Shown one piece after another: positions 17,741 through 44,880 of a DNA stretch of 64,000 bases. Under the pieces are notes generated by a model. That model saw only the letters and a program-made list of their open reading frames with translations, searched no databases and had not been told where the DNA came from. Location of the stretch: contig NZ_JABAFY010000002.1 in assembly GCF_012843875.1 (NCBI RefSeq), positions 80,448 through 144,447 on the forward strand. The letters are read 5' to 3'. Made by a program: the position numbers and the translations under genes. Every line of letters starts with the position of its first letter. Within the stretch, counting starts at the first letter, position 1. Source of the stretch: Desulfovibrio piger. Lineage in GTDB: Bacteria > Desulfobacterota > Desulfovibrionia > Desulfovibrionales > Desulfovibrionaceae.

Positions 17741-20700
17741 ATGGCGACGCAGTGTCCCGGTACGACATGCAAGACCGGAGATGATGCCTTCGTCTCCATC
17801 ATCGACGGCATCCGTAAAAAAGCCCTGAGCCACCCCGACTCTCCGGCGCTCAGTTTTCTTCCCGACGGAAAAGCGGAAAATGCCGAGCTCTGCTCGTACA
17901 GCCGCCTCGACATGCGGGCGCGTGCCATTGCCGCGGCCATCCAGGCCACAGGTCAGGGCGACGGCCGTCCCGTCCTGCTGATGCTGCCGCCGGGCCTGGA
18001 ATTCATCGCGGCCTTTTTCGGCTGCCTGTACGCGCGGGCCATCGCCGTTCCCATGACACCTCCAGGTCTGGCCCGCATGGCCCGCACATTCAATCGTCTG
18101 GCCCGCATTGTGGAAGACTCCGGCTCACGCGTCTTCATCACTTCCGCACGTCTGTGCAAGGCGGTGGAAGAACTGGCCGAACGCGTCCATTTTGCCGACA
18201 GCATACGGATCATCTGCCTTGATGAGACCGACGATACCCTGTCCCGGTTCTGGCAGGAACTTCCTTTGACTGCGCATACGCCCGGATGGCTGCAATATAC
18301 CTCCGGCTCCACCAGCAGCCCCAAAGGAGTCATCATCACTCACGGCAACATCATGGCCAATCTGGACAGCATCGCCGGGCACATGCGGCTCCGGGAAAAT
18401 ATTCCCACCGTCAGCTGGCTGCCCCCCTTCCACGACATGGGCCTCGTGGGCGGCATCCTGACGCCGCTCCATCTGGGCTGCCTGTGCGTCACCATGCCTC
18501 CCATGGCCTTCCTGCGCCAACCTCTCTGCTGGCTGCGCGCCGTCACCCACTATCGCGCCCAGCTGACGGGCGGCCCCAACTTTGCCTACGACCTTTGCTG
18601 CGACCGCATCCCGGAGGATCGGCTCCGGGAGCTGGATCTCAGTTCGCTTTCCGTCTGCTACTGCGGCTCCGAGCCCATCCGCCTGAAGACCATCCGCCGT
18701 TTCCTGGAGCGTTTCAGTTCCGCCGGTCTCGATCCTGCCAGTTTCTATCCTTGCTACGGCCTTGCGGAGAACACGCTGTTCACCACAGGCTGCTGGAAAA
18801 ATGACGGCGATTTTGCCGTTTTTCTCGACAAGCAGGAATATGCCGCAGGCCGCATACGCTTCCTGCAGGAGCAGCACGCCGATGCCATGCCGCTGCTTTC
18901 CTGCGGCACGGCCGGGCGTAACAACGACGTGCGCATCGTCGATCCCCAGACATGCCGGGAGGTCGAAGAAAAGGAGCTGGGCGAGATCTGGATCAGGGGG
19001 ACGTGCGTTTCTCCGGGATACTGGGAACAGCCCGAAGCCACGAAGACCGTCCTGCATGCCGTGCTGGCCGGATCCGGCGAAGGGCCCTTCCTGCGGACAG
19101 GTGACATGGGCTTCATGTCCGGGGGGCATCTTTTCGTCTCCGGGAGATGCAAAGAAATGATCATCCTCAACGGCCGCAATTTTTTCCCGCAGGACCTTGA
19201 GGAATGCGTCCTGCAGAACGTGCCGGGGCTGGAGCAGAATGGCGCTGCCGCCTTCGGCATCGACAGCGATGCCGGCGAACGGCTGGTCATGGTCTTCGAG
19301 ACCCGCCTGCCCGCGACAGCCCACGAGGCGACGCTGGCGGCCATCCGGCGCAGCCTTTCCGAAGAATTCGACATCTCCCCCTGCGCCGTCGTCCTCTGCA
19401 AACGGCATGGCGTGCCCAAGACCACCAGCGGCAAGATCCAGCAGTCCCTGTGCCGCCATCTTTACCTTCACGGCGAACTGCCCGTACTGGCGGAATGGCG
19501 GGAAGAGCCCCGCGCCGGGGCCCCCGCCTGGACTCGTCCCCCGCAGGAGCAGGATGGCCTCGCCTCCCGCGAGGCCTGGCAAAACTGGTTGCGTGACGGC
19601 CTTTCCGCGCGCCTGGGGCTTTCCCCGGACAGCGTGGGCCTGCACACGCCGTTCAGCTCCCTGGGCATGGGATCGGCCACGGCCGTGGCCCTGACCGGGG
19701 AATTGCAGCAGGCCTGCGGCCGTCCTCTGCCCACGACCCTGTTCTATGACCATGCCGACATCGCCTCGCTGGCGTCGTTCATGGCCGGGGACCTTTCCGA
19801 TGAAGCCCCGTTGCCCGCGCACTGCGCCGGACAACAGGCGGTGGCCATCATCGGCATGGCCTGCCGTCTGCCGGGCGCCGACAGCCCCGAGGCTCTGGAG
19901 GCACTGCTCTTCGGCGGCAAGGATGCCATCACCCGGCGCGACCCCGCCCACCGGGATGGTACGGCCGCTCCTGAAGACGGGGACAGGGCTGTCTGGGGCG
20001 GTTTTCTGGACAACATCAGCGCTTTCGATGCCGCTCTGTTCGGTATCTCTCCCCGCGAAGCCGTGGAGATCGATCCCCAGCAGCGCCTGCTGCTGGAAGT
20101 CTCCTGGCAGGCCCTGGAGCGGGCCGGGATCGCGCCGGACAGCTTGCGCCGCAGCCGCACAGGCGTCTTCACGGGCATCAGCTCTTCCGATTACGAGAAC
20201 CGCCGTCTCCAGTGCGGCCAGAGCCTCAACGCCTATGTGGGGACGGGAAACGCCCACAGCATCGCGGCCAACCGCCTTTCCTATTTCTACGGGCTCGAAG
20301 GCCCGAGCATGGCCGTAGACAGCGCCTGCTCGTCCTCGCTGCTGGCCCTGCACCTGGCCTGCCGCAGCCTGCGGGACGGCGAATGCGAGACCGCTCTTGC
20401 CTGCGGCGTCAATATCCTGGCCGGAAGCGAAGGACAGGATATCTTCACCGACGCCCATCTCATGGCCCCGGACGGCCGCTGCAAGACCTTTTCCGCCGAC
20501 GCCGACGGCTATGTCCGCGCCGAAGGCTGCGTAGTGCTCGTTCTTAAAACGCTGGAAAGGGCCCTGAACGACCAGGACCCCATCCTGGGCATCGTCCGCG
20601 GTTCGGCAGTCAACCAGGACGGCCGGAGCAACGGCCTTACGGCCCCCAGCCGCCGGGCCCAGGCCCGCCTGCTGCGCGAAGCTCTCCATAACGCCGGGCT

Positions 20701-23113
20701 TACGGCCGCGGACATCGACGGCATCGAAGCCCACGGCACCGGCACGCCCCTGGGCGACCCCATCGAATTCGGCGCCATCAGCGATGTCTACAGCGGCAGC
20801 AGGGAGGCCGATCGCCCCCTGCTGGTCTCCTCCATCAAGACGAACGTCGGCCACCTTGAGGCTGCCGCCGGTCTTGCCGGGGTCTGCCGCGTCCTCATTG
20901 CCCTGCAGGCCGCGGCCATCCCGCCGCACCTGCACCTGAAACGCCTCAATCCCGAAATCAGGACAGACGGCATCCCGGCCGCCATCCCCGTCGCCACCAC
21001 CCCGTGGCCCCGGACCCCGGGACGTCCCCGCCGGGCCGGTGTCAGCTCGTTCGGCTTTGGCGGGACCAATGTCCATGTCATCCTCGAAGAAGCTCCCCTG
21101 ACAGACGCGCCTTCCGGCACGCTCCCCGGACCTCTCCCCGTCTTGCCGCTGGCGGCCGCATCGGAAGGCCAGCTGCGGGAGCTGGCGGCAGACTACAGGG
21201 AACACCTTGCCCGGGCGCCGGAACGGGAGATGGCCGATGCCTGCCTGACCTGCGGCACCGGCCGGGCCTCCCTGCCCTGCCGTGCGGCCCTCGCGGGCCC
21301 GGATATCGTCCGGGGGCTGGAACAGCTCGCCTCGGGGATGCCCGTTCCCTTCATGGGCCATGTGCCGGACAGCGCGCCGCACCGTCCGGTGGTCTTCTTC
21401 CTCGACAGCATGGCGGGCTGCCCCGACGCTTCCCTCCCGGATGTCCCGCCGCTGGCCTCCGTCCGCACCGCACTGCTGGAGCAGCTGCCCTCCGGGACGG
21501 AGACGGATGGACAGGCAAGGGCGTTCCTGGCTCTTATGGCCACGGCCGAAGCCTGGCGCCGTATGCTCGGTGAACCTGCGGCCATCCTCTGCACACCGGC
21601 GACGGTATCTGTGGCGGCCTGCCTTGCAGGCCATCTCGACCCGGAAGACGGCCTTGCCCTGTACCGGGCCCTTGAAGGTGATGGAGCCCCCATCCCGCAG
21701 TTCAAGGTCCGCGCCTCGGAAGCCGGGACCGTCTCCATCCCCCTGTTCGATCTGGGCCGCAGCAGGCTCATCTCCGCCGCAGAAGCCCGCGATCCCGCCT
21801 TCTGGCAGGCATATGCCCCCACGACCGGAGCCCCGGAAGAAGCCCATGCCATCGCCCAGGCCCGGCGCCTTGCCCCATCCGCCGACATCCTGGCCATGCG
21901 TCCCGGCGACCTTCCCGACGGCAATACCGCAGACACGCCGCTGCTGCTCCCCGCCTTCGCTCCCGATGCCGCTGCGACGCCGCAGCATGTGGCCGCGGTG
22001 CTGGCCTGCTGCTGGACACGCGGTACAAACGTGCGCTGGGCTGCCGTCCATGCGGGCAGTGCTGCCCGGCGCATACCGTTGCCGACCTATCCTTTTGCAC
22101 GCGAGCGCTTCTGGTTCGGCGGCACGGACATGACCGGCGCCCCTGCCGCCCTGCCCGCACGCCGCTCTCCCGCCCCGCTGGAGATCCCCGACGTATCGTG
22201 CGTCATGCAGGAGACTGCGCGTGCGGACCGTCTTGACGATGCGGAGCTCCTGGCGCTGCTTTCCCATGAGGCCCGCGCCGTCCTGCGCCTGCCCGAAAAC
22301 GTCTCCCTCTCCCCTGAGACGCCCCTGGTCAGGGCCGGTTTCGATTCCCTGCTGTTCATGGAGCTGGCGCAACGCCTGAGCAGACGCCTCGGCATGACGC
22401 TGCCTCCGGCCCTGCTCATGGAAACTGCCACCCTGGCCGCCTTGCGGGAACGTCTGTGCCTGCAGGGACAGACCGCTCCCGCCCCTCAGGAGATGACGGA
22501 CATCGTTGCCCGTCCCGAAGACAGGCACCTGCCCTTCCCCCTGACGGACGTGCAGCACGCCTACTGGATCGGACGGGACGGCAGCATGACGCTGGGTGGC
22601 GTCAGTTGCAGCAATTATGTGGAAGCGGACTTCACGGGACTGGACGTCCCCCGGCTGGAAAAAGCCCTGGATGCCCTCGTCAGGCGGCATGACATGCTGC
22701 GCTGCGTCATCACGCCTGGCAGGCGGACAGGGAGTACTGGCTGCAGCGCCTGCCCTTCCTGCCCGCAGGTCCCGAGCTGCCTCTGGCACAGACGCCGCAA
22801 AGCCTCGGCACCCCCCGCTTCCATCGTCGCACGGCGATGCTGGATGCCGCACGCTGGGCCCGCCTCAAGGAAATGGGGCGCGCACAGGGGCTCACGCCCT
22901 CCGGCCTGCTGCTGGCGGCCTTCAGCCTCGTCCTTTCCCGCTGGACGGCGCAACCGCACTTCTGCCTCATGCTCACGACCTTCGACCGCCGGTACCGGCA
23001 TGAGGAAATGGGGGCCGTGGTGGGGGACTTCACCCGCCTGCTGCTGCTCGAAGTCCAAAGGGAAAAAGGCGCCACCTTCCTGGAGCACGCAACGGCTCTC
23101 GGCAGGCAGCTGA
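17741..23113 (+). CDS. Hybrid PKS/NRPS part 1: FAAL-ACP-KS-degenerate AT-ACP-Cy (frameshifted 3' end)
   Basis: Loads a fatty acid and begins the assembly line. Start at the ATG after aaaggaggg. Domains: fatty-acyl-AMP ligase 17741-19520 (YTSGSTSSPKG, PFHDMGL); ACP 19570-19800 (LGMGSATAV); KS 19843-21095 with Cys in DSACSSS, EAHGTGT and NVGHLEAA; a shortened AT region 21110-22110 without the GQG or GHSxG motifs; second ACP 22235-22455 (AGFDSLLF); start of a heterocyclisation (Cy) domain from 22520 (FPLTDVQHAYWIGRDG). At about 22718 homology leaves this frame and resumes at 22720 in another frame with roughly 360 bases of Cy domain absent. The last 130 residues to 23113 are therefore meaningless, and this gene and the next were probably one. 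Confidence 0.8.
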   Translation: MATQCPGTTCKTGDDAFVSIIDGIRKKALSHPDSPALSFLPDGKAENAELCSYSRLDMRARAIAAAIQATGQGDGRPVLLMLPPGLEFIAAFFGCLYARAIAVPMTPPGLARMARTFNRLARIVEDSGSRVFITSARLCKAVEELAERVHFADSIRIICLDETDDTLSRFWQELPLTAHTPGWLQYTSGSTSSPKGVIITHGNIMANLDSIAGHMRLRENIPTVSWLPPFHDMGLVGGILTPLHLGCLCVTMPPMAFLRQPLCWLRAVTHYRAQLTGGPNFAYDLCCDRIPEDRLRELDLSSLSVCYCGSEPIRLKTIRRFLERFSSAGLDPASFYPCYGLAENTLFTTGCWKNDGDFAVFLDKQEYAAGRIRFLQEQHADAMPLLSCGTAGRNNDVRIVDPQTCREVEEKELGEIWIRGTCVSPGYWEQPEATKTVLHAVLAGSGEGPFLRTGDMGFMSGGHLFVSGRCKEMIILNGRNFFPQDLEECVLQNVPGLEQNGAAAFGIDSDAGERLVMVFETRLPATAHEATLAAIRRSLSEEFDISPCAVVLCKRHGVPKTTSGKIQQSLCRHLYLHGELPVLAEWREEPRAGAPAWTRPPQEQDGLASREAWQNWLRDGLSARLGLSPDSVGLHTPFSSLGMGSATAVALTGELQQACGRPLPTTLFYDHADIASLASFMAGDLSDEAPLPAHCAGQQAVAIIGMACRLPGADSPEALEALLFGGKDAITRRDPAHRDGTAAPEDGDRAVWGGFLDNISAFDAALFGISPREAVEIDPQQRLLLEVSWQALERAGIAPDSLRRSRTGVFTGISSSDYENRRLQCGQSLNAYVGTGNAHSIAANRLSYFYGLEGPSMAVDSACSSSLLALHLACRSLRDGECETALACGVNILAGSEGQDIFTDAHLMAPDGRCKTFSADADGYVRAEGCVVLVLKTLERALNDQDPILGIVRGSAVNQDGRSNGLTAPSRRAQARLLREALHNAGLTAADIDGIEAHGTGTPLGDPIEFGAISDVYSGSREADRPLLVSSIKTNVGHLEAAAGLAGVCRVLIALQAAAIPPHLHLKRLNPEIRTDGIPAAIPVATTPWPRTPGRPRRAGVSSFGFGGTNVHVILEEAPLTDAPSGTLPGPLPVLPLAAASEGQLRELAADYREHLARAPEREMADACLTCGTGRASLPCRAALAGPDIVRGLEQLASGMPVPFMGHVPDSAPHRPVVFFLDSMAGCPDASLPDVPPLASVRTALLEQLPSGTETDGQARAFLALMATAEAWRRMLGEPAAILCTPATVSVAACLAGHLDPEDGLALYRALEGDGAPIPQFKVRASEAGTVSIPLFDLGRSRLISAAEARDPAFWQAYAPTTGAPEEAHAIAQARRLAPSADILAMRPGDLPDGNTADTPLLLPAFAPDAAATPQHVAAVLACCWTRGTNVRWAAVHAGSAARRIPLPTYPFARERFWFGGTDMTGAPAALPARRSPAPLEIPDVSCVMQETARADRLDDAELLALLSHEARAVLRLPENVSLSPETPLVRAGFDSLLFMELAQRLSRRLGMTLPPALLMETATLAALRERLCLQGQTAPAPQEMTDIVARPEDRHLPFPLTDVQHAYWIGRDGSMTLGGVSCSNYVEADFTGLDVPRLEKALDALVRRHDMLRCVITPGRRTGSTGCSACPSCPQVPSCLWHRRRKASAPPASIVARRCWMPHAGPASRKWGAHRGSRPPACCWRPSASSFPAGRRNRTSASCSRPSTAGTGMRKWGPWWGTSPACCCSKSKGKKAPPSWSTQRLSAGS

Positions 23114-26100
23114 TCCGGGACATGGGACACAGCCGTTTCTCCGCCGTGGACGTTCTGCGGGAACTGGCAAAGGATCACGGCGAGGACATGACGTCCTCCC
23201 GCTCCGCTGTCGTCTTCACCAGCGCCCTGCCCCTCAGCGGTGACGATCCGTTCGCCGCGGCCGACGGCCTGGGAGCGAAGCTGGCCTATGCCGTCTCCCA
23301 GACGCCGCAGGTATGGCTGGACCATCAGGTCTGCGAATACCGGGGCCAGCTCGTCTATACCTGGGATGCGGTGGAAGACCTGTTCCCCTCGGGGATGCTC
23401 GATGCCATGTTCACCGTCTACGGCGACTTCCTCACGGCCCTGTGCGAGGATGCCGCTCTCTGGCAGCAGCCTGTGCCCCTGCACCGTCTGCCCGCATCAC
23501 AGGCAGACGTCCGCCATGCGGCCAATGCCACAGAAGCGGCCATCCCGCCGCGTACGCTGTTCGCCCCCTTCCTGGACCACGCCTCCCGGGATGGAGCCCC
23601 TGCCGCCGTCATCGGCGAAGGCGTCAGCCTGTCCCGGGCCGAGGCCGAACCCATCTCCCGCCTGCTGGGGAACGGGCTGCGTTCGCGGGGCCTGCGTCCC
23701 GGCGAGATCGTGGCCGTCATGATGGAAAAGGGCTGGGAACAGGTCGTGGCCGTCATGGGCATCCTGCGGGCCGGGGGCGCCTATCTGCCCGTGTCCCCCT
23801 CCCTGCCGGACAAGCGCATCGCCTACATGTTCAAGGATGCCGGTGTCCGCTTCTGCTTCGTGCAGCCCGGCCTGGAAGCCAGGGCCGAAGCCTGCGGCAG
23901 CGAGGCCGTCCCCGTCCTCCGCGCCTTCCCGGAACAAGCGGCCCCGGCCGCGGCGCCCCTTCCGGATACGGACGTATCGCCGGAGGGCTTGGCCTATGTC
24001 ATCTATACCTCCGGCTCCACAGGCCTGCCCAAGGGGGTGATGGTCAGCCATGCCGCAGCCCACAATACCCTGGCGGACCTGGGGCAGCGTCTGGGCCTCG
24101 GGCCCCGTGACCGCGTCATCGCCCTTGCCAGCCTGTCCTTCGACCTTTCCGTGTTCGACCTTTTCGGCGTCACGGCAGCGGGCGGCGCCGTCGTCATCCC
24201 CGCTCCCGGACAGGAGAGGGATCCCGCGGCCTGGTGCCGCCTGATGCGGGAACAGGGCGTGACCGTCTGGAACAGCACCCCTTCGCTCATGCAGCTGCTG
24301 CTCGACTATCTGGACGACCACCCCGAAGACAGGCCGGAACGACTGCGCCTGGCCCTGCTCAGTGGCGACTGGATCCCCCTTGCCATGCCGGACCGCGTGC
24401 ACGCACTGTGGCCGGACATGACCGTTGCCGCCCTCGGAGGGGCCACCGAAGCCGCCATCTGGTCCAACATCCAGATCGTGGACCGTATCCCGGCAGAATG
24501 GCACAGCATCCCCTACGGCCGTCCGCTGGCCAACCAGGGATATCTTGTCCTCGACCAGGACCTGTACCCCTGCCCGGATCTTGTGGCCGGTGACCTGTAC
24601 ATCACCGGGGCGGGCCTGGCCCGCGGCTACCTCAACGATCCCTCCAAAACGGCCGCGGCCTTTTTCCGCCATCCCCGCAGCGGGCAGGCCCTGTACCGCA
24701 CGGGAGACCTGGGTCGCTACTGGCCTGACGGCACTTTGGAATTCCTCGGCCGCAAAGACAGCCAGGTCAAGATCAACGGTTTCCGCATCGAGCTGGGCGA
24801 GGTGGAACGGGCCCTGAACGCCCTCCCCGGCGTGGGCAATGCCGCCGTCATCGCCCTCAGGAGCGACAAGGGCGACAGGCTCGCCGGCTTCGTGTCTCCC
24901 GCACCGCAGGCAGTCATGCCGGCACCGTCCGATGAAAGCCCGGAAGCCCGCGAAGCCCGGTACCGGAGCATGAGGGACGCCGGCATCACCCTTGTGGATG
25001 ACGTGGAACGCCTGGCCTACAAACAGGCGGGGCACAACCTCCGCAAGGACCTCGACAGCCTGCCCCGCATCGGTCTCGCCACGGAGGACGAGGCCACCAG
25101 CCTGTCCCTGTTCTCCCGCCGCATCTCGTCGCGCCGCTTCACCGAAGCCCCCATGGAACGGGAAGCGTTCGAAAGATTGCTGGGCTGCCTGCGCGGCCTG
25201 GACATCCCCCAGTGGCCGGTGGTCAGGCACCGTTACGGCTCCGCGGGCTGGACCTATGCCGTACAGGTCTATGTCCTGGTCAGGCCCGGCAGGATCCGGG
25301 AGCTGGATGGCGGCTGCTATTATTATCATCCGCTGGAAAACGCCCTCGTCCGCATGGCCGATGCCCCTGAAGCCAATCCGGCCCTGGACCTCGACGCCAG
25401 CCCTTTCTACATCAACACGGCCCTTGCGGACTGGAAGGATGCGGAAAGACCACGCGCCGCCGGGATCAGCTCCTTCGGCATCGGCGGGTCCAACGCCCAT
25501 GCCGTCATCATGCAGGCTCCTGAAGAGCCGGTGAATTCCCGCCACCTGCCTGACGGCACGCCGGATCTTTTCGTCCTTTCGTCGCGCACCGGGACCATGC
25601 TGCGTGCCCTTGCCGGACGCATGGCCCAAGCGCTGGAGGCCCCGTCCGCCTCCCTTGCCGACATCTGCTTCACGGCCAGGGCCTCACGCAGCCGGGACAA
25701 GGTCCGGCTGGCCGTCCGCGCCACCTCGACCGGCGCGCTCCGGGAGGCTTTGCACGCCTTTGCCCGGGGCGGGATGCCCGAGGGGATGCTGCTTTCCGGA
25801 CATACGGAGGCACAGGACGTGCCCGGCGACCTCATGGATGACGGACTCCAGCGGGTGGCCCTGGCCTGCATGGCCGGTGACGACAAGGCATTGGACGCCC
25901 TCCAGGAAAAAGCCCTGCGCCTGGGCGCCCGTCGCGTCCGGCTTCCCCTGACTCCCTTCCAGCGCCGCCGCTTCTGGCCTGAAGAAGACAGCACCGGCAC
26001 GGATGGCACCGGCCGTGAAGCCGTCTCCCATCCCGTATGGCGCGAACGCTTCACAACTGCGGAAGGAAAGATCCTTTACGGGGGCCGCCTTGGCGGCAAG

Positions 26101-27579: not shown

Positions 27580-27615
27580 CAGCCGCTGGAACGCCGCTCC
27601 CCGGAAGCGGGCGAG

Positions 27616-32886: not shown

Positions 32887-32931
32887 TCCTTTCACCAACC
32901 CTTCAAAAGCGCCATGCGCACGAGGCATGCC

Positions 32932-36069: not shown

Positions 36070-39000
36070 ATGCCACAAGGATGCCATGAAAAACGTCAGG
36101 ACCTTGTCCTGGACAACATCCCGCTGCTCTCGTTCATGAAACGCTGCGGCGAGAATTTCCGCGAGATACTGGGAGGCCGCAAGGATCCCAGACAGGTCAT
36201 GTTCCCCGGCGGCAATCCTGACGCCGTGGAGAGCATCTACCAGGATACCCCGCAAAGCCGTTATTATAACGGGATCATGGCCAGGAGCCTGAAGGCCCTT
36301 GCCGATGCCCTGCCCATGGACCGCGCCCTCTCCATCCTGGAGATCGGCGCCGGCACGGGCGGGACGACCTCGGCCCTGCTGCCCGTCCTGCCCGCAGGAC
36401 GCACCCGTTATGTCTATACGGACGTCTCCCCCCTGTTCACGGCCCGGGCCCGGGACCGCTTCGCCGCCTTCCCCTTCGTGGAATATGCCACGCTGGACAT
36501 CAGCCGCGACCCGTTCCTTCAGGGCTTCCATGCCGACGAGTTCGATATCGTCGTCTGCGCCAATGTCCTGCACGCCACTGCCGACCTGACCGCCGCCCTG
36601 CGCCACATCAGCGCCGTGCTGGCCGCGGACGGCCTGCTCCTCCTGCGGGAGATCACCCTGCCCCGGCCGGCCATGGGCTTCGAGATATCCTTCGGCTGCC
36701 TGCTCGACAAACTGCGTGACGGGGAGCTGCGCGGCGACAATCCCTTCCTGACCGCCGAGGGCTGGACCCACCTGCTGGACACGGAAGGATTCGACAGGAC
36801 GGCCTGCTACCCTGCCCCCGCCGACGGCGACCTTGACGAACATGTCATCATCGCCCGCAACGGCAACGGCAGCCGCCAGGCCTTCAGTACCGGGATCGCG
36901 CCCGCCCGGACGGACGCACCGGACGGAGACGACACGGGCCATATCCTGCTGGGACGGCGCCTCTCCTCCCCCCTGGCCGTGAGCCAGTATACGGCGGCGG
37001 TGAGCGGCACCCTGCAACCCTTCCTGGCCCAGCACCGCGTTTTCGACATCGTGGTCGTTCCGGGCACGGCGCATTTCGACCTGGCCGCCGCCGCGGGCAT
37101 GGATCATTTCGGTACGGACCGTATCCGGCTCGAGAATGTGGTGCTGCGCGAGGCCCTCATGCTCGACGAAGGCGAACGCACCGTACAGGTCCTTGTCTCT
37201 CCCACGGAAAACGGGGCCGATTTCGAGATCTTCAGCCGGGGCGCCGGACAAGGACAGGGGGAATGGCACCAGCATGTCTCCGGCCAGCTCGCCCCCGCCC
37301 ACGAGCGCTCTGCCGAAAACGTCGACCTGGACCGCCTGCGTGAAGGTTGCGACGAGGTGGACGTACAGGCCTTTTACGAAAAATTCGATGCCTACGGGGC
37401 CGTGCAGTACGGTCCGGCCTTCCGCAGCCTGCGGCGCCTGTGGCGCACCCGGGGCGGAGCTGTGGCCGAAGTGGCCCTGGACAGCGCCGAACGCGGCAAA
37501 AAAGGCGGTTTCATCATCCACCCGGCCCTGCTCGACAGTTGCCTGCAAAGCATGGTCGCCGCTCTTGCCGCCACCGAGGATGACCTCACGGGCAACGGTT
37601 TCATGCCGTTCAGCGTGGAAAAAGTCATCTTCCACGGGCGTGCGCCCGAAACGGTCTGGTGCCGGGCCGTCATGAAGGAAGGCGACAGCTTCCGGCAGGA
37701 GATGTTCTCTGCCAGTTTCACCATCTTCACCCCCGAAGGCGAGCCCGTTTGCGAGATCGTCAACCTTACCATGCGCCGTACCAACAAGGAGACGCTGGAA
37801 CTGCTCAAGGCCGGGCAGCGGCAGCATACCGACCTGTGCTATGACGTGGTCTGGCGCCAGGCCCTGATGCCGGAATCCGGGGACGCTGCCGGGCACTGGC
37901 TCATCCTGGCCGGTCGCGATACGGATTTTGCCCGTGCCCTCGCCCGTTCGCTGGAACAGCAGGGCGCTACGGCCATGCTCGCGGCCTGCGCCGGTACGGG
38001 ACATCCTGACGACATGGCTGCCGTCGATCCCGGCGATGCCGACGCCTTCGCCCGTCTGATCCGCGACTGGCGGCAGGGCGGCACGCCCCGGGGCGTCGTG
38101 TTCCTCTGGGGCCTGGACTGCTACGAGACCGACTTCCTGGGCAGCGGCGGCGAAGCTCCCTTCAAGAACCATACGGCCCAGGCCTTCCTGCATCTGGCCC
38201 AGGCTCTGGCGGCACAGGAGGACGGCCCGTCCGTGCGCCTGGCCGTGCTGACCTGCCAGGCACAGGCCGCCCGCGCTTCGGATCAGCCCGTCCCCGCTCA
38301 AAGCCTGCTCTGGGGCCTGGAAAAATCCGTGGCCAACGAACTGGGCAACATCGCGCCGGTCATCATCGACATGGACCCCGTGGCCGCTCCCGAGGCCCAG
38401 CTTCCCACTCTGTGCGGCCTGCTGACCGCCCGCGGATACAAGGAAGACAAGCTGGCCCTGCGCGGCAGCAGCCTGCTGGCCCCCCGTCTGGTACGCGGCC
38501 TGCCTGCCGCCCGGCAGGTGCGCAACGCCCCGCTGGCCCGTCCCGAAACGCAGGCCTACCATCTGGATCTCGGCGGCGCGGGCATCGAGAACATCCGGGT
38601 CGCCCCGCTGCAGCGGCGTCTTCCCGGGCCCGGCGAGATCGAGATCGCGTCCGAAGCCTACGGCATGAACTTCCAGAACGTCATGGTAGCCATGGGCGTG
38701 GCCGACAAGATCAGGACCCTGGTGCTCGACTGCGCGGGCACGGTCTCCGCCGTTGGTGAAGGCGTGACCCGCTTCAGCCCCGGCGACCGGGTCTTCACCA
38801 CCGTGTACGGCCCCTTCGCTTCCCACGTCTATGCCCGGGAAGCCTTTGCGGCCTCCATACCGGAAGGCATGCCGTTCACCGACGCTGCGGTGATCCCCAC
38901 CGTCTTCATGACCGCCTGGCAGGCGCTCGTCCATGCGGCACGCCTCCAGCCCGGCGAACGGGTGTTGCTGCACTCGGCCACAGGGGGCGTGGGCCTTGCC

Positions 39001-42000
39001 GCCATCCAGATCGCCAGGGCACGCGGCGCGGTCATCCTTGCCACGGCGGGCACGGAGCGCAAACGCGCCCTGCTGCGCTCCATGGGTATAGAGCACGTCT
39101 TCTCCTCGCGCTCCACGGCCTTCGAATCCCGGGTCCTCAAGGCCACAGGCGGACAGGGCGTGCACGTGGTCCTCAACTTCCTTACCGGCGAGCTGGCCGA
39201 CAGCAGCATGCGCTGCCTGACGGAAGGTGGCCGTTTCATCGAGATCGGCAAGACCGATCTGCGCACGCCCGCACAGGTGGCGGCCATCCGTGACGATATC
39301 GAATACCACATCGTCGACCTTGAAAAACTGGGCAAGGAGGACGAGGCGCAGATGCGCGGCATCTTCGCCGCCGTCATGGAAGGTTTTGCCGCCGGGCACT
39401 ACACCCCCATAGCCCGGCGCGTCTTCACCATGGATGCCGCCAGGGACGCCTTCCGCTACATGCTCGAAGGACGCCATATCGGCAAGGTCGTCGTACGCAA
39501 CGACTTTGCCCCCAGGCACGAAGGCATCCGCCGGGAGGCGGCCTACCTCGTCACTGGTGGCCTGAGCGACCTGGGCCTGGCGCTGGCCGCCCACCTAGCT
39601 GCCCGTGGTGCCGGACAGGTGTGGCTGCTGGGACGCCGCCTGCCTGAGGCCGGTTCCGCCGGCGCGGCCGCGGTGGAAAAGATCGCCGCCACAGGATGCG
39701 ATGTCCGCCTCCTGCAAGTGGACGTGACGGACAGGACCGCCCTGGCCGAGGCGTTCGGCACGCATCTGCTGCCCTCTCCCAGGCCGCTGGCGGGCGTCTT
39801 CCATCTGGCCGGCCTGCTGGACGACGCGCCCCTGTCCCGTCTCGACTGGGCCCGCTTCAATACCGTCCTCTCCCCCAAGGTGGACGGCAGCTGGTTCCTG
39901 CATGAACTGACACGCGATCTGGCGCTCGACCACTTCGTGGTCTTCTCCTCCATCGCCTCGGTCTTCGGTACGCACGGCCAGGCCAACCACGTGGCCGCCA
40001 ACACGTTCATGGACGCCCTCGTGGCTGCCCGCCGCGCTGACTTCCTCCCCGGCCTCAGCATCAACTGGGGAGCCTGGGGCGAGCTGGGGACCGTGGTGCG
40101 TCTGGGCATCCTCGACCGCATCCGCCAGCAGGGCGTCGAGGGCTTCGATACGGCCACAGGACTTGCCGTCCTCGACAGGCTCATGGCGTCCGGCGAGGGG
40201 AGCAATGTCGTCACCCGCATGGACTGGAACCGGATGCTGCCCATCCTGCAGGCCACTGCCGGCGCCGCCATGTACGAAGAGCTCCGGCACAGCCCCGCCG
40301 CCGCCCGCCCGGCCGAGACCGCGGGCAACAGCAGGCTTGCCGCGGAACTGCGCGCCCTTCCCATGAGCGGAAGGGAAGAACGGTTGCGCGCCTATCTCAA
40401 GAAAGAGATCGCCGGTTTCCTGCGCCTCGAAGAGGATGCCATCCCCGAGGATGTCAACCTGACCAGCCTGGGCATGGATTCGCTCATCAGCCTCGACCTG
40501 TTCCAGCGTATCAGCCGGGATCTGAAGATCCGCATCGCGCCGCACGAAGTCTCCGCCACGCCCACGGTGCAGGCCATGGCGGCCAGGTTCGCCCGTGACC
40601 TCGGCCCGGCCTCCGGCGAAGAGGAAACGGCACCGGCCGTGCAGTCCGGCACCCCCGCCACGAAGGAGGAAGGCGCCGGCCTTTCGGCCCTGCTCGTCCC
40701 CGCGCCGGACGAGGCTTTCGAGCCCTTCCCGCTCTCGGACATGCAGCAGGCCTACTGGATAGGCCGCGACCAGTCCGGCCTGGCCCTCGGCGGCGTCAGC
40801 TGCCACTTCTACTTCGAAGCCCAGGCCCGGGGCCTGGACGCCGACCGCTATGAAGAGGCCTGGAACCGTCTCATCCTCCGCCAGCCTATGCTGCGTACGA
40901 TCATCCTCGACGGCGAACGCCAGCAGGTGCTGGAGAAAGTCCCGCATTACACCATCCGGCGGCATGACCTGCGCCAGAGCTCTCCGGAGGAAGCCGCGGC
41001 CCACTTCGAGCGCATCCGCATGGAGATGTCCCACGAAGTCCTGGACGTGGGCCGCTGGCCCAACTTCCGGGTGGAGGTTTCCCTGCTGCCCGATGATGCC
41101 TTGCGCATCCACCTCAGCTTCGACCTCATCCTGAGCGATTTCCACGGCATCAGCCAGATGCTCGCCGAGCTCTCGCTCATCTACAATGGCCAGGAGGACA
41201 AGCTCCCTGTGCTGGACATCACCTTCCGGGACTACCGTCTGGCCGAGGAACGCTACCGGGCCACCGGGATCTATGCCAGGGACCGCGACTACTGGCTCGC
41301 CCGTCTGGATGACCTGCCCGCCGCGCCGCGGCTGCCGCTGGCCACCAGCCCTGCCGCCATCGACCGCCCCGTCTTCAGCCGCAGGATGACGACCCTCGAC
41401 AAGGAGACCTGGCAGCGCATCAAACAGCGCGGCGACGCCCGCGGCCTGGCTCCCACGGCCGTGGCCCTGGCGACCTTCGCCGAAGTCCTGGGGTGCTGGA
41501 GCGAAGAAAAGCGCTTCTGCATCAATCTGACCCTGTTCAACCGCCTGCCCCTGCATCGTCAGGTCAATGCCCTAGTCGGCGAATTCACCTCCAACAGCCT
41601 CCTGGCGGTGGACCTGACGCAGGGAGGGAGCTTCGAGACCCGGGCTGGACGGCTGTGGAGCCGCCTGTGGGACGACATGGAACACCGTTCCTTCAGCGGC
41701 ATCCGCGTCCTGCGCGAACTGGGCCGCAGACGCGGCACGGCGGCGGGCATCATGCCCGTGATCTTCACCAGCGCCCTGTCCATGGAATCCTCTTCCGGCA
41801 CCTTTGCCCTCGGGCAGATGGGGCACGAGGTCTACAGCATCTCCCAGACCCCGCAGGTCTGGCTCGACCATCAGCTGTTCGAAGTGGACGGCGAGCTGCG
41901 CATCGTCTTCGATTATGTACGCGATCTCTTCCCTGACGGGATGATCGATGCCATGTTCGAAGCCTACGCCGAGGCCCTGCGCCGCCTCTCCCGCGACGAC

Positions 42001-44880
42001 GCGGCCTGGGGCGATGCCGTGCCGGGCATCCGGGTCATGGCCATGGGCGGCGCCACCGAGGCCTCCATCTGGTCCAACTTCCACGAGACGGGCCCGGACG
42101 ATGCCCGCTGGGCCTCCGTGCCTTACGGAAGACCGCTGGCCAACCAGGCCTTCGCCGTCCTGGATGACCGTCTCCAGCCGCGTCCCGACTGGGTCGCCGG
42201 AGACCTTTACATCAGCGGAGACGGCCTGGCCCTCGGTTACTGGAACGATCCCGAAAAGACGGCCGGGGCATTCCTGCCGGCCGGGGACGGGCATCCCCGT
42301 CTCTACCGCACGGGAGACACGGCACGCTACCACGACGACGGCACCCTCGAATTCCTCGGCCGCAAGGACGAGCAGGTGAAGATCCACGGCTACCGCGTGG
42401 AACCGGGCGAGATCGAATCCGTGCTCAAGGCCCATCCTGCGGTGAACAATGCGGCCGTCCTGCTCCACAAGGGCGCGGAAGGCGAGCTGTCGCTGACAGC
42501 CTATGTGGAAGCCGATCCCGGACACCGGGGCGAGATCGTGCGGGAAGAACGCGCCGCAAGCCGTCTGGAGGACGGGCTCCCGCTCCGGGCGGACGGCCGG
42601 GAAGGCCTTGACGAGGAACGCTTCCTGCCTGTCTGGGACAAGATGAAGGAACTCTATGCGGCTGCCGTCACCGCGGCCCTGGAAGAGCTCGGCTTTTTCG
42701 GGCACGGCTACCGTGACACGGAGACCTTCCTGCACGACAGCGGCATCAGTCCCCGCTACGGGCGCTGGCTGGCGCGGGCCGTGAAGGCCCTGCACGATCT
42801 GGGCCTCGCGGACAGGGACGGGGACGGCGTATGGCAGCGTCGCGGCACGGCTCCCGACAGGGAAGCCTGCCTGGCCTTCTGCGCCGACAGGGCCGGAGAA
42901 CTGGGCTACAGCCCGCAGGAGATGGCCCTGCTGGCCCGCACCGTGCGCGAGCTCCCCGCCATCCTCAGGGAAGACGTGCACTCGGCGGAATTCTACACGT
43001 CCGCGGAAGTGCCCGGCTTCTACCAGAAAATCTTCGGCGCCAGCAACCGGCTGACGGCGGATCTGGTGACCGGGCTGGCGGCGGCTTCCGGAAACGGTTT
43101 CCGCATCCTCGAAGTCGGCGGCGGCTACGGCACCGTGACGCGCTTCGTCCTGCCCGGCCTGCCGGACGGCGGCGTGACCTATGACTTCACGGATATCTCC
43201 CCCTTCTTCCTGAACAAGGCCCGCGAGGAGTTCGCCGGTTATCCCTTCGTCAACTACCGTCTGCTGGACCTTGATGAGGATCCCCGCCTCATGGGCTTCG
43301 AGCCGCATGGCTATGACCTCATCCTTGCGGGCAATGTCCTGCATGATGCGGCAGACATCAGGCGGAGCCTGAAGTACCTGACGGGCCTGCTCAAGCCGTC
43401 CGGGATCCTGCTCATGCAGGAGGAGACCGTCTTCCAGCTGCCCTTCGACCTGAGCATGGGGCTCCAGCAGGGCTTCGACAGCGCCCGGGACGAGGAATTC
43501 CGTCCCGAGCAGCCGCTGCTGACCCGTGAACTGTGGACGAAGGCGCTGACGGAGGCGGGCCTTTCCCGGCCGTCCTTCCTGATGCCCCCCGCTTCCCTGG
43601 AAAGCCGTCTGGGGCTGGAGGTCATCCTCAGCGAAGGCCCGTCGTCCGTGGCACGCTTCACGCCCCGTCCTCTGGAAGACCATCTGCGCGGGCACCTGCC
43701 TGCCTGGATGATACCCGTCTCGTGGACGCTGCTGGACAGGATGCCCCTGACCCGCAACGGCAAGGTGGACAGGAAACGCCTGTCAGGCGGTGCCGTACGG
43801 CAGCGCCCCCGTACGGGCGTCACCGCCCGGACCAGGACGGAACAGGCCGTGGCCGCCATCTGGAAAAACGTCCTCAGGGTGGACGACGTGGGCGTGACGG
43901 ACAGCTTCTTCCTGAGCGGTGGGGACTCCCTCTCCGCTTTCCAGCTGCTCCGGCAGCTGGAGCGGGAGTTCGGTTGCCGTCTGACCCTGCGTGACCTGCT
44001 GCAGGCCCCCACCGTGGCCGCACAGGCCGCCCTCGTGGACCACAAGCCGGGTGCCTCTGCCGGCGAACTGGTCTGCCTGCATGACGCTGACGGCCCCGCG
44101 ACCGTGTGCATGATGCATCCCGTGGAAGGCCTCGTGAACGCCTATGCCCCGCTGGCCGCCAAGCTCGGAGAGGTCTCCTTCCATGCCCTCCAGAGCGCCG
44201 GTCTTGATGGTGGTCCCCTGCGTACCGCCTTCCCGGACATGGTCACCGCGGCCCTGGAGGCCGTGGAGGGGCTCCCGCGGCCCCTGCTGCTGGGCGGATG
44301 GTCCATGGGGGCCTTCCTGGCCTGGGAAACGGCCCGCCGTCTGCTGGCCGGCGGCCAGGGAGAACACCTGCTGCCGCTGGTCCTGCTCGATCCGCCTTCA
44401 AAGCCCGCCTGGGACAGCCTCTATGACAGCCGCGCCCATGATCCTGCCGCCCTGCTCGGGCTTGTGGCCCCCGCGCCCCAAAAGGCCCTTGCGGCCCTGG
44501 GCATGAGCGAAGGGGACCTGGCCGCACTGGACGCCCCCGCACGGGCCCGCGTCCTGGCCGAGGCCCTGCGCAGCAGCGGACAGCTTGCCGTGGAAAAGGA
44601 CGACCTGGAAATGGCCGGACGGGTCATGGAGATCATCGACGCCAACCTCAGGGCCCTGCGCTCCTATGCGCCGCAGCCCCTGGAAGGCCTGCCCGTGCTC
44701 TACGTCCGCAGCAACAGCATGGAAGAGGACGACGACCGCACGGCCTACTGGCGCGGACTGGCGGGATCGGGCTTCGAGGAGCTGGCCGTGGATGCCGACC
44801 ACTGGAACCTGCTCCATGATCCCGGCAGCGTGGATGCCATCGCCGCCAGACTGGCCCGTCTACTGAAAAAACACGCCTAA
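36070..44880 (+). CDS. PKS/NRPS subunit 5: cMT-DH-ER-KR-ACP-Cy-A remnant-MT-PCP-TE
   Basis: About 2936 residues, intact frame. The ATG at 36070 has gga at a proper distance; 36064 is too close. Domains: C-methyltransferase to 36860 (ILEIGAGTGG); DH 36950-37780 (QHRVFDIVVVPG, YGPAF, HPALLDSCLQ); ER 38560-39510 (HSATGGVGLAAIQ); KR 39535-40300 whose catalytic Tyr is His (GQANHVAAN); ACP near 40380-40600 (LGMDSLIS); Cy 40720-42020 with DLILSDFHG; then only the C-terminal half of an adenylation domain from 42030 (MGGATEASIWSN) with an embedded methyltransferase 42620-43600 (ILEVGGGYGTVT), A10 region TRNGKVDRKR, PCP (SGGDSLSAF) and thioesterase (GGWSMG, His in DADHWN). It extends with methylation, adds the last Cys-derived ring if loaded in trans, and releases the product. 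Confidence 0.85.
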   Translation: MPQGCHEKRQDLVLDNIPLLSFMKRCGENFREILGGRKDPRQVMFPGGNPDAVESIYQDTPQSRYYNGIMARSLKALADALPMDRALSILEIGAGTGGTTSALLPVLPAGRTRYVYTDVSPLFTARARDRFAAFPFVEYATLDISRDPFLQGFHADEFDIVVCANVLHATADLTAALRHISAVLAADGLLLLREITLPRPAMGFEISFGCLLDKLRDGELRGDNPFLTAEGWTHLLDTEGFDRTACYPAPADGDLDEHVIIARNGNGSRQAFSTGIAPARTDAPDGDDTGHILLGRRLSSPLAVSQYTAAVSGTLQPFLAQHRVFDIVVVPGTAHFDLAAAAGMDHFGTDRIRLENVVLREALMLDEGERTVQVLVSPTENGADFEIFSRGAGQGQGEWHQHVSGQLAPAHERSAENVDLDRLREGCDEVDVQAFYEKFDAYGAVQYGPAFRSLRRLWRTRGGAVAEVALDSAERGKKGGFIIHPALLDSCLQSMVAALAATEDDLTGNGFMPFSVEKVIFHGRAPETVWCRAVMKEGDSFRQEMFSASFTIFTPEGEPVCEIVNLTMRRTNKETLELLKAGQRQHTDLCYDVVWRQALMPESGDAAGHWLILAGRDTDFARALARSLEQQGATAMLAACAGTGHPDDMAAVDPGDADAFARLIRDWRQGGTPRGVVFLWGLDCYETDFLGSGGEAPFKNHTAQAFLHLAQALAAQEDGPSVRLAVLTCQAQAARASDQPVPAQSLLWGLEKSVANELGNIAPVIIDMDPVAAPEAQLPTLCGLLTARGYKEDKLALRGSSLLAPRLVRGLPAARQVRNAPLARPETQAYHLDLGGAGIENIRVAPLQRRLPGPGEIEIASEAYGMNFQNVMVAMGVADKIRTLVLDCAGTVSAVGEGVTRFSPGDRVFTTVYGPFASHVYAREAFAASIPEGMPFTDAAVIPTVFMTAWQALVHAARLQPGERVLLHSATGGVGLAAIQIARARGAVILATAGTERKRALLRSMGIEHVFSSRSTAFESRVLKATGGQGVHVVLNFLTGELADSSMRCLTEGGRFIEIGKTDLRTPAQVAAIRDDIEYHIVDLEKLGKEDEAQMRGIFAAVMEGFAAGHYTPIARRVFTMDAARDAFRYMLEGRHIGKVVVRNDFAPRHEGIRREAAYLVTGGLSDLGLALAAHLAARGAGQVWLLGRRLPEAGSAGAAAVEKIAATGCDVRLLQVDVTDRTALAEAFGTHLLPSPRPLAGVFHLAGLLDDAPLSRLDWARFNTVLSPKVDGSWFLHELTRDLALDHFVVFSSIASVFGTHGQANHVAANTFMDALVAARRADFLPGLSINWGAWGELGTVVRLGILDRIRQQGVEGFDTATGLAVLDRLMASGEGSNVVTRMDWNRMLPILQATAGAAMYEELRHSPAAARPAETAGNSRLAAELRALPMSGREERLRAYLKKEIAGFLRLEEDAIPEDVNLTSLGMDSLISLDLFQRISRDLKIRIAPHEVSATPTVQAMAARFARDLGPASGEEETAPAVQSGTPATKEEGAGLSALLVPAPDEAFEPFPLSDMQQAYWIGRDQSGLALGGVSCHFYFEAQARGLDADRYEEAWNRLILRQPMLRTIILDGERQQVLEKVPHYTIRRHDLRQSSPEEAAAHFERIRMEMSHEVLDVGRWPNFRVEVSLLPDDALRIHLSFDLILSDFHGISQMLAELSLIYNGQEDKLPVLDITFRDYRLAEERYRATGIYARDRDYWLARLDDLPAAPRLPLATSPAAIDRPVFSRRMTTLDKETWQRIKQRGDARGLAPTAVALATFAEVLGCWSEEKRFCINLTLFNRLPLHRQVNALVGEFTSNSLLAVDLTQGGSFETRAGRLWSRLWDDMEHRSFSGIRVLRELGRRRGTAAGIMPVIFTSALSMESSSGTFALGQMGHEVYSISQTPQVWLDHQLFEVDGELRIVFDYVRDLFPDGMIDAMFEAYAEALRRLSRDDAAWGDAVPGIRVMAMGGATEASIWSNFHETGPDDARWASVPYGRPLANQAFAVLDDRLQPRPDWVAGDLYISGDGLALGYWNDPEKTAGAFLPAGDGHPRLYRTGDTARYHDDGTLEFLGRKDEQVKIHGYRVEPGEIESVLKAHPAVNNAAVLLHKGAEGELSLTAYVEADPGHRGEIVREERAASRLEDGLPLRADGREGLDEERFLPVWDKMKELYAAAVTAALEELGFFGHGYRDTETFLHDSGISPRYGRWLARAVKALHDLGLADRDGDGVWQRRGTAPDREACLAFCADRAGELGYSPQEMALLARTVRELPAILREDVHSAEFYTSAEVPGFYQKIFGASNRLTADLVTGLAAASGNGFRILEVGGGYGTVTRFVLPGLPDGGVTYDFTDISPFFLNKAREEFAGYPFVNYRLLDLDEDPRLMGFEPHGYDLILAGNVLHDAADIRRSLKYLTGLLKPSGILLMQEETVFQLPFDLSMGLQQGFDSARDEEFRPEQPLLTRELWTKALTEAGLSRPSFLMPPASLESRLGLEVILSEGPSSVARFTPRPLEDHLRGHLPAWMIPVSWTLLDRMPLTRNGKVDRKRLSGGAVRQRPRTGVTARTRTEQAVAAIWKNVLRVDDVGVTDSFFLSGGDSLSAFQLLRQLEREFGCRLTLRDLLQAPTVAAQAALVDHKPGASAGELVCLHDADGPATVCMMHPVEGLVNAYAPLAAKLGEVSFHALQSAGLDGGPLRTAFPDMVTAALEAVEGLPRPLLLGGWSMGAFLAWETARRLLAGGQGEHLLPLVLLDPPSKPAWDSLYDSRAHDPAALLGLVAPAPQKALAALGMSEGDLAALDAPARARVLAEALRSSGQLAVEKDDLEMAGRVMEIIDANLRALRSYAPQPLEGLPVLYVRSNSMEEDDDRTAYWRGLAGSGFEELAVDADHWNLLHDPGSVDAIAARLARLLKKHA

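Follow-up and report, generated by a model that had tools for sequence, protein, structure and literature searches.

A damaged PKS/NRPS gene cluster is present in the window, the whole 64,000-nucleotide stretch of Desulfovibrio piger DNA that was analysed. We give a probability of about one half to the reading that intact relatives of this cluster start from a fatty acid, build on three rings derived from cysteine and release what is likely a lipid-tailed metal chelator when iron is short. The unit runs from a promoter box at 17354 to about 51755, beyond the 44880 at which the preliminary description stopped, and all features given below lie on the forward strand. Six genomes carry the cluster: that of the window (G000), a second one of the same species (G051), D. 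piger ATCC 29098 (G058, NZ_DS996351.1), a goat-rumen genome (G060, JAFTDR010000092.1), G039 and G048; the copies of the first five were compared. Cluster proteins of G051 are 47-64% identical to those of G060 and G039, which belong to two other species.

Organisation of the assembly line

In G051, G058 and G060 the line consists of four intact proteins with the order FAAL-ACP-KS-ACP-Cy-A(Ox)-PCP (protein A), KS-DH-ER-KR-ACP-Cy-A-PCP (B), KS-AT (C) and cMT-DH-ER-KR-ACP-Cy-A(MT)-PCP-TE (D), and most catalytic motifs are conserved across three species in a motif check of the intact copies. The domain types FAAL, KS, DH, ER, KR, cMT, Cy, Cys-type A, Ox and TE are all represented. The loading domain (17741-19489) matched the NCBIfam fatty-acid--AMP ligase models with an E-value of 1e-116 and 391 bits, under the model cut-off of 775, against only 140 bits for the amino-acid adenylation model. 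It is fused to ACP1 (19541-19792, approximate limits; two stretches of the ORF match the PP-binding Pfam family and a carrier motif is present) and to KS1 with a C-terminal extension (19835-21307; Pfam and active-site motifs), and this fusion at the start of the line is that of a FAAL-primed PKS/NRPS. The preliminary description had read a FAAL loading domain and ACPs here, and the 17741-21307 segment bears this out by Pfam matches of very low E-value and by NCBIfam FAAL matches below the curated cut-offs. Likewise, the KS/DH/ER/KR modules, the methyltransferases, the PCP and the terminal TE were recovered by Pfam at very low E-values.

Downstream of KS1, protein A continues with a stretch at the position of AT1 (21308-22123), ACP2 (22277-22450), a Cy1 remnant (22520-23437, approximate limits), A1 (23581-24906) and an Ox remnant (24934-25374) that corresponds to a Nitroreductase domain in the intact relative. 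Protein B comprises a C-terminal remnant of KS2 (25375-25770), DH2 with its motif (26029-26865), ER2 (27420-28480, approximate limits), KR2 (28518-29051), ACP3 (29343-29540), a whole Cy2 (29628-30896), A2 (31026-32472) and PCP2 (32560-32748). KS3 (32930-34091, start approximate) and the only recognisable AT (34545-35486) form protein C. The last protein contains the C-methyltransferase of module 3 (36112-36861), with CurJ among the solved relatives matching here, followed by DH3 (36940-37794), ER3 (38557-39495), KR3 (39538-40080), ACP4 with its motif (40375-40593), a whole Cy3 (40729-41994), an A3 remnant (42019-42513), a methyltransferase inserted in A3 (42541-43611), PCP3 (43843-44037) and a TE with the motif GWSMGA (44101-44844). 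All of these domains were identified by Pfam, apart from the remnants of Cy1 and Ox and the inserted methyltransferase; the latter is C-MT-like, its best solved-structure relatives being CurJ and then 7dmb, AprA MT2, LovB, PsoF and DisA. The megasynthase genes are followed by a type II thioesterase (44939-45709), an MMPL/HAE3 family transporter (45706-48048), a LolA-like/DUF1329 periplasmic carrier (48079-48888; PF17131, E 4e-61) and a DUF1302 protein, probably an outer-membrane barrel (48914-50170), the first three by Pfam as well as the DUF1302 gene, and by an LCM-type methyltransferase (50182-51021) and a phosphopantetheinyl transferase (51018-51755), both from profile matches.

The nature of the Cy domains was checked, as they might have been ordinary condensation domains. 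With the window's Cy3 or an intact relative's Cy1 as query, the Cy domains of BmdB, PchE, Irp2/HMWP2 or EpoB were among the best solved-structure relatives. In the intact copies from three species, each of the three Cy domains retains its DxxxxD motif. As far as tested, they are true Cy domains, Cy2 by its motif only. Cys-like pockets were found in 9 of 9 A domains from the three species (DLFNLSLIW in A1 and DLYNISMIW in A3 of intact relatives), the DLxNxSxIW type being what we take to be the cysteine code. An acyl starter and three Cys-derived rings (two or three thiazoline/thiazole rings had been announced earlier) agree with the FAAL family matches and with the three Cy domains and Cys-like pockets of the intact relatives; neither a phenolate nor a catechol starter was found in the assembly line, and this counts against the chelator reading.

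One AT is present for three KS modules. Modules 1 and 2 gave no Pfam AT match in the window or in intact relatives, the GHSxG motif is absent from protein A of G051 and G060 and from the available part of that of G039, as from the AT1-position stretch of the window, and this stretch shows 25% identity between the window and G060. Such AT-less modules are the first mark of a trans-AT PKS, a class in which we do not file the line; the sole AT of the cluster sits in cis in protein C and none that is free-standing was seen in the cluster. The HAFH motif of the protein C AT is presumably malonyl-type. In KR3 the catalytic Tyr is replaced by His in all four KR3 domains of the family, while this Tyr is present in 10 other pattern-matched KRs and in 13 of 13 in a further matched set. 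With no catalytic Tyr in KR3 and the Gly of the HxxxG motif not conserved in DH3, the third spacer is uncertain.

Read along this order, the FAAL would activate a fatty acid and load it on ACP1, KS1 would add malonate without reduction, and Cy1, A1 and Ox would make a thiazole. Module 2 would then provide a reduced two-carbon spacer, Cy2 and A2 a thiazoline, module 3 a C-methylated unit, and Cy3, A3 and the inserted methyltransferase a further thiazoline, probably C-methylated, before the TE releases the acid. Modules 1 and 2 would need to be served in trans, by the AT of protein C or by another AT.

Lesions in the window copy

Alignment with two intact copies, those of the same-species genome and of D. 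piger ATCC 29098, identified four deletions in the window (361, 2109, 915 and 144 bp), three single-base frame breaks (near 28.1 kb in ER2, 31.7 kb in A2 and 33.2 kb in KS3) and a nonsense codon at 27577 in ER2. The 361-bp deletion, with loss of frame at 22712-22718, removed the core of Cy1 with its DxxxxD motif, so that of the three Cy domains described previously only Cy2 and Cy3 are whole in the window. The 2109-bp deletion (junction 25368-25372) shortened Ox, removed PCP1 and left only the C-terminal end of KS2; an Ox domain is present, as had been noted, in truncated form. The 915-bp deletion, in frame near 42.02 kb, took the first ~300 aa of A3; the earlier mention of Cys-type pockets holds for all three A domains in intact relatives. 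The 144-bp deletion lies at the 5' end of the DUF1302 gene. That the breaks might be gene boundaries was rejected by the same alignment. A stop at 36050 was discarded as a lesion, for a gene ends and another starts there in the intact copies too, and dense window-only changes at 22719-22748 were an alignment overlap at the deletion junction and not real.

The genome is a 133-contig draft and the deletions fall in modular genes, which would fit assembly errors in repetitive modules and a working cluster in the strain; this bears on the state of the copy and not on its function. The 4-6 bp microhomology at the four junctions would fit too, and is also expected of real deletions. Two comparisons argue against such errors. 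Firstly, all 4 megasynthase genes are disturbed in a gene-level check. Of 21 other genes in the window region it flagged 2, a 154-aa ORF (90% covered) and an ORF that overlaps homoserine succinyltransferase on the reverse strand, and of 29 genes further upstream on this contig it flagged 3, namely two truncated at the limits of the stretch compared and a rapidly evolving 4355-aa ORF (92% covered). Secondly, with the stretches around the four deletion junctions left out, megasynthase dN/dS is raised on the window branch (0.291, compared to 0.149 and 0.187; Fisher P 0.025) and the intact branches are under purifying selection; the flanks are not raised, and the nonsense codon points the same way. 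We regard assembly errors as somewhat unlikely. The word 'ancestral', used of the product in the preliminary description, suits a broken copy, and if the decay is real the trait varies among strains and the window strain is a natural knock-out. In the upstream control region there are further differences from G051: part of the 4355-aa ORF (about 2 kb versus 1.2 kb) could not be aligned, and the window genome has some 0.7 kb that G051 lacks.

Iron control and transport genes

Consensus and promoter scans found a Fur-box-like palindrome (17354-17368) in a sigma-70-like promoter (17347-17375). Using the delta-proteobacterial Fur box consensus of PMC545781, this site is the sole match to TGAAAATNATTTTCA in the 64 kb with up to 3 mismatches, and it has 2; an E. 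coli-type Fur box gave 0 matches. Its sequence is identical in G051 and G058, and the diverged promoter of G060 has a separate Fur box and a weaker second site (the box was examined in D. piger and G060, the G039 contig stopping short of the promoter). Dinucleotide shuffles of 16585-17741 gave P=0.002 at up to 2 mismatches and 0.016 at up to 3; for the G060 promoter the values were 0.007 and 0.008, respectively. Since 25 of 100 shuffled windows of like composition also contained one or more box-like sites, it is the position of the site, rather than its presence in the 64 kb, that carries the weight. A widened pattern, set after the D. piger site had been seen, occurs within about 510 bp upstream of all 6 strong FeoB genes of G058, G039 and G060; the 64-kb scan and the shuffle tests with the published core are independent of this widening. 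Combined, these results point to a predicted delta-proteobacterial Fur box in the cluster promoter, newly described here, and to expression that is likely induced when iron runs short, with Fur acting as a putative repressor of the operon in iron-rich conditions.

No TonB-dependent receptor, the classical mark of a Gram-negative siderophore system, was found in five of the six cluster genomes (G000, G051, G058, G039 and G060), none of which has a plug match. The barrel search gave nothing over cut-off and three sub-threshold matches in G000 and G051; G048 has one plug match, on a contig apart from those of its cluster. By comparison, a TonB receptor is present in 10 of the 11 remaining Desulfovibrio that carry Cy domains. 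Ordinary ferric-siderophore uptake would thus be left without a known door, and the earlier proposal of a plausibly metal-binding product gains from Fur boxes in two diverged species, while the failure to find a TonB receptor in the D. piger genomes speaks against a classical siderophore.

For the transporter gene, TIGR00921 HAE3 was the best NCBIfam match, below its cut-off. With the LolA-like and DUF1302 genes downstream of the megasynthases, it completes a trio of AmeABCD type, by which a greasy product may be moved to or through the outer membrane. The LolA-like gene is not specific to this cluster, as relatives at E <= 1e-30 occur in 41 of 348 genomes from the order. In G053, LolA-like and DUF1302 genes adjoin a Cy-like domain and a gene that resembles DHB ligases; in G046, LolA-like, MMPL and TonB-receptor genes adjoin a FAAL-like/condensation/A/TE protein.

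The same trio, the FAAL tail and the TonB receptor that was not found in D. piger would suit an outer-membrane lipid, localised like an aryl polyene, that alters the cell surface and is no chelator, with the Fur box incidental, since the portion of PMC8253772 consulted proposes that in E. coli an RND transporter and LolA-/LolB-like proteins bring aryl polyene lipids to their location. Set against this are the Fur boxes in two diverged promoters, because of which we rank a pure envelope lipid as a rival, and the absence of an anchoring acyl- or glycosyltransferase among the Pfam matches of those ORFs of the cluster and its surroundings that were tested. Three Cys heterocycles, moreover, are typical of chelators such as yersiniabactin and pyochelin. 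An envelope lipid is on balance unlikely. Still less likely is a lipopeptide-polyketide that is secreted as an antibacterial or a signal and plays no part in metal handling: some bilothiazoles of the Bilophila Cy cluster are antibiotic according to the extracts of PMC11934131, but the two Fur boxes again argue otherwise and no resistance or immunity gene was seen among the Pfam matches of the neighbouring ORFs tested. A more specific form of the chelator reading is put forward tentatively, as a rather unlikely one: a receptor-free metallophore, in which a Fur-controlled, fatty-acid-anchored tris-thiazol(in)e would be placed in the outer membrane by MMPL-LolA-DUF1302, would hand its metal to FeoB and would, in addition to sulfide, contribute to the metal starvation of C. 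difficile by D. piger.

Context and known systems

The sulfate reducer D. piger is common in the human gut. It triggers a metal-starvation response in C. difficile, discussed as sulfide-driven metal sequestration in the text available from PMC10174544, and a chelator could be tested as an additional cause. A hybrid polyketide-NRPS cluster of D. piger, probably the present one, is named in one clause of PMC6222126; order, product and function do not appear in the sections seen. Those of PMC6712304, PMC10267222 and PMC3608642 contain nothing on the cluster, and searches of the openly licensed PMC literature, as far as its texts were accessible, brought up neither a polyketide nor a siderophore characterised from D. 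piger. The authors of PMC11934131 describe natural-product knowledge from Desulfovibrionia as very limited, in the part read. For two other Desulfovibrio, PMC545781 (2004), in the excerpts used, predicted a regulon for siderophore transport without finding any known pathway of siderophore biosynthesis. The present lipid-primed Cy line, with a Fur box in its promoter and no TonB receptor found alongside it in the genome, makes a related siderophore question testable in ATCC 29098.

Yersiniabactin and pyochelin lines have Cy-A-PCP units acting on cysteine, a cMT-bearing PKS module before the last Cy, a methyltransferase in the last NRPS module, a TE and a separate type II TE. The present line resembles them in the relatedness of its Cy domains and in each of these elements (Cy-A-PCP on cysteine, cMT module, MT, TE and type II TE). 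It differs by a fatty-acyl starter, loaded by a FAAL, in the place of their salicylate (aryl) starter, with no salicylate-synthesis gene among the Pfam matches of the ORFs tested, and by three PKS extension steps and the TonB receptor that was not found. Micacocidin synthase joins a FAAL start to Cy domains and has an aromatic-forming start. The first two are shared, whereas fully reducing modules and Ox are present here and the aromatic-forming start was not seen, and the parallel drawn earlier is that of a partial analogue only.

The bil cluster, which comes from a Bilophila sp. and hence from a related genus of sulfidogenic gut bacteria, is a different Cy-based cluster that has been expressed and makes bilothiazoles; on the passages seen of PMC11934131 it shares the Cy/Cys logic, has one PKS step and a last ring that is potentially C-methylated, and differs by an aryl (DHB) starter from a free AMP ligase, by its 4 modules and by no mention of FAAL. 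AmeABCD of Castellaniella, in the text seen of PMC6394551, combines HAE3, LolA superfamily and DUF1302 proteins. As in ApeL/M/N of E. coli (PMC8253772, in part), an HAE3/RND pump goes with a LolA-family carrier, DUF1302 being shared with Ame. In contrast to both, the genes here are tied to a PKS/NRPS line, and no AmeC-like gene was recognised among the Pfam matches of the neighbouring ORFs tested.

Mycobactin is an iron-regulated chelator with a FAAL-attached lipid tail and MmpL-type export. The lipid tail and the export logic are shared, the chelating groups and the phylum differ, and the likeness is one of analogy only. On the best reading of these comparisons, the product would be a lipid-tailed thiazole/thiazoline metallophore with yersiniabactin-like ring chemistry and mycobactin-like export logic, and a member of neither family.

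Domain order and predicted chemistry

The window spans positions 80448-144447 of contig 46 in a draft genome of 2.86 Mb, which has 133 contigs and a completeness rating of 100%. Two close relatives, G051 (the same species as the window genome, in one contig) and D. piger ATCC 29098 (G058), show 96.9-99.5% identity to it over aligned blocks, which places the window genome in D. piger or a sister species. In the window, Pfam profiles gave the order AMP-binding (fatty-acyl-AMP ligase, FAAL), ACP, KS, ACP and a partial condensation domain; AMP-binding, KS C-terminal extension and DH; ER, KR, ACP, heterocyclisation (Cy) and adenylation (A); PCP; KS-AT; and, in a 2938-aa protein, MT, DH, ER, KR, ACP, Cy, partial A, MT, PCP and thioesterase (TE). 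The intact order in G051 is FAAL-ACP-KS-(no AT motif)-ACP-Cy-A-Ox-PCP for protein A, KS-DH-ER-KR-ACP-Cy-A-PCP for protein B and KS-AT for protein C. Protein D is cMT-DH-ER-KR-ACP-Cy-A-MT-PCP-TE, as read from the Pfam result of the window with the whole A domain taken from the 3245-aa relative. The four genes of G051/G058 encode up to 3000, then 2894/2890, 1045 and 3245/3246 aa.

The FAAL loading domain proposed in the preliminary description was supported, with 391 bits for the NCBIfam fatty-acid--AMP ligase models (under their cut-off of 775) versus 140 bits for the amino-acid adenylation model. By their structural matches, Cy3 and Cy1 are not ordinary condensation domains, since the solved structures matched by Cy3 of the window include BmdB, PchE, Irp2/HMWP2 and EpoB and those matched by Cy1-A1 of an intact relative include BmdB and PchE.

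Relatives of protein D with at least 58% identity were found in 6 of the 61 genus genomes searched (G000, the window genome, with G051, G058, G048, G039 and G060). At 47-64% identity, G060 has the same gene order, downstream genes included, and G039 has all four proteins (A incomplete). Among the 120 protein C matches listed, the best 14 had 56-69% identity, and the three among them that carried an organism name were Desulfovibrionaceae or Deltaproteobacteria; the lower ones were mostly at 40-50%, except for shorter pieces at 64-75%.

Wherever the stretch is present among the species compared (protein A of G039 being incomplete), the motifs of KS, AT (GHSxGE, HAFH), ER, Cy, carrier and TE nucleophile are kept apart from single changes, for example NVGH to AIGH in KS1 of G060. 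The Gly position of the DH3 HxxxG motif is Asp, Gly or Asn across the family. No recognisable AT was found for modules 1 and 2 in a domain and motif search of the relatives. All nine A-domain pockets read DL(F/W/Y)N(L/I)S(L/M)IW, a cysteine-type code. The catalytic Tyr of KR3 is replaced by His in the four family members, so that module 3 may retain a keto group; this Tyr is present in the other 10 KRs matched (two of them family KR2) and in 13/13 matched in a second set. The MT inserted in A3 is closest to C-methyltransferases (CurJ; also AprA MT2, DisA and LovB), which favours a last ring that is C-methylated rather than N-methylated.

Lesions of the window copy

Four deletions, of 361, 2109, 915 and 144 bp, distinguish the window from G051 and G058; their junctions show microhomology of 4-6 bp (measured against G058 alone for the 915- and 144-bp deletions). 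The Cy1 catalytic core, the Ox end, PCP1, KS2 (active site included) and the beginnings of A3 and of the DUF1302 gene are lost. The domain types given in the preliminary description are real, but of the three Cy domains Cy1 is not whole in the window. Relative to both references, ER2, A2 and KS3 each carry a single-base frame break, and ER2 also has a nonsense codon at 27577. Compared with both, there is also a 26-bp gap upstream of the start, and the frame is kept across two shorter gaps, of 6 bp at 40.3 kb and of 9 bp in the LCM gene (50.9 kb).

As a control, G051 genes were compared with the window genome over the window region and 60 kb upstream. Of 25 genes compared in the window region, 6 were flagged, namely all four megasynthase genes, an ORF of 154 aa with 90% coverage and a reverse-strand ORF that overlies homoserine succinyltransferase. 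Upstream, flags fell on 3 of 29 (two cut by the stretch ends and a 4355-aa ORF, 92% covered), and 11 further genes lacked a counterpart there. On the window branch, the four megasynthase genes show a nonsynonymous to synonymous ratio of 54:64 plus one stop (dN/dS 0.291), compared to 29:67 (0.149) and 44:81 (0.187) on the two other branches (window branch higher, Fisher P 0.025); nine flanking genes gave 8:32 (0.081) on the window branch. Combined, the concentration of lesions in the megasynthases and their raised dN/dS favour a real, recent decay over a local assembly error.

Other features of the region were recorded. The 4355-aa ORF (near 1.95 Mb in G051; about 28-37 kb of contig 46 in the window genome) carries many clustered inter-strain indels, often mutually compensating, and appears to be a fast-changing giant protein. 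A fifth deletion, of 724 bp relative to G051, lies outside the cluster near 58452. Relative to D. piger ATCC 29098, the cluster (18-52 kb) shows 5-36 changes per 2 kb and is less divergent than most flanking bins (21-73 at 4-18 kb, 33-58 at 52-60 kb), a contrast not seen relative to G051; this hints that lineages recently exchanged the cluster by recombination. A cobalamin riboswitch (RF00174, 88 bits) at 61794-61970 on the reverse strand is the sole Rfam match in the window at the gathering threshold, and a 4Fe-4S protein at 53631-54353 has a weak best match to HgcB ferredoxin (33 bits, cut-off 99).

Predicted iron control, receptors and export

A delta-proteobacterial Fur box, WTGAAAATNATTTTCAW, derived from feoAB promoters, is given in PMC545781. 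Its core was used as scan pattern with up to 3 mismatches. The single match in 64 kb, at 17354-17368 (2 mismatches), lies in the cluster promoter, overlaps a sigma-70-like promoter found by promoter scan and has the same sequence in G051 and G058. As at least one match occurred in 25/100 whole-window shuffles, the weight rests on the position of the site. The promoter of G060, which is quite different in sequence, carries a site of its own at 9339 and a second, weaker site at 9419, both upstream of the start at 9471. In dinucleotide shuffles of the window and G060 promoter stretches, the observed number of sites was reached in 0.2% and 0.7% (at most 2 mismatches) or 1.6% and 0.8% (at most 3). 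With a widened pattern, chosen after the D. piger site was known, a site lay at most ~510 bp upstream of 6/6 strong FeoB genes (E < 1e-50) in G058, G039 and G060, to which the count was restricted, G000 and G051 being excluded; across five genomes, this pattern outnumbers its reversed control 2.6- to 7-fold.

Profile searches detected no TonB-dependent receptor plug in G000, G051, G058, G039 and G060, and one match in G048. No receptor barrel exceeded the cut-off in these six cluster genomes (sub-threshold matches in G000, 1, and G051, 2), and TonB_C matches were weak (at most 33 bits), G048 excepted. The comparison set comprised 11 other genomes that matched the Cy region at E <= 1e-60, taken by E-value and not by Cy motif (G021, G052, G018, G059, G056, G055, G016, G030, G050, G011 and G053). 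The plug is present in 10 of these 11 (Fisher P 0.005 versus the cluster genomes), and in 8/11 versus 0/6 a receptor shares the contig of the Cy match and is at most ~17 kb away from it (P 0.009), both values uncorrected for kinship.

The downstream genes of the cluster code for a type II TE, a pump of the MMPL type with HAE3 as its best NCBIfam match, LolA-like and DUF1302 proteins, a methyltransferase of the LCM type and a PPTase. The trio of HAE3, LolA superfamily and DUF1302 proteins is that of AmeD, AmeB and AmeA of the Castellaniella AmeABCD system, in which, according to PMC6394551, deletion of AmeA, AmeB and AmeD with AmeC lowers monoterpene tolerance. According to a proposal in PMC8253772, aryl polyenes are placed in the outer membrane by an RND transporter acting with LolA-like and LolB-like proteins. 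Among 23 genomes searched, 10 had DUF1302 relatives, namely the six cluster genomes, G046, G053, G010 and G070. In G053, a genome in which no TonB receptor was found, DHB-AMP-ligase-like, DUF1302 and LolA-like genes adjoin a Cy-like domain on contig 204; contig 94 of G046 (7116-20000) holds a compact relative, a 2122-aa FAAL-like/condensation/A/TE protein adjoining TonB receptor, MMPL and LolA-like genes. Parts of the export set thus also accompany chelator-type clusters of this genus, a point in favour of a metallophore.

Comparison with known systems

A hybrid polyketide-NRPS cluster of D. piger was noted in one clause of PMC6222126; in the portion of that paper available, the domain order, Fur boxes, exporter, missing receptors and decay are absent from this mention.

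The cluster is best read as a predicted assembly line for a lipid-tailed thiazole/thiazoline metallophore under iron regulation, and the copy in the window strain has probably decayed. It belongs to neither the yersiniabactin nor the mycobactin family, the former because starter and receptor do not match. Its ring chemistry is like that of yersiniabactin and its lipid tail and MmpL export are like those of mycobactin.
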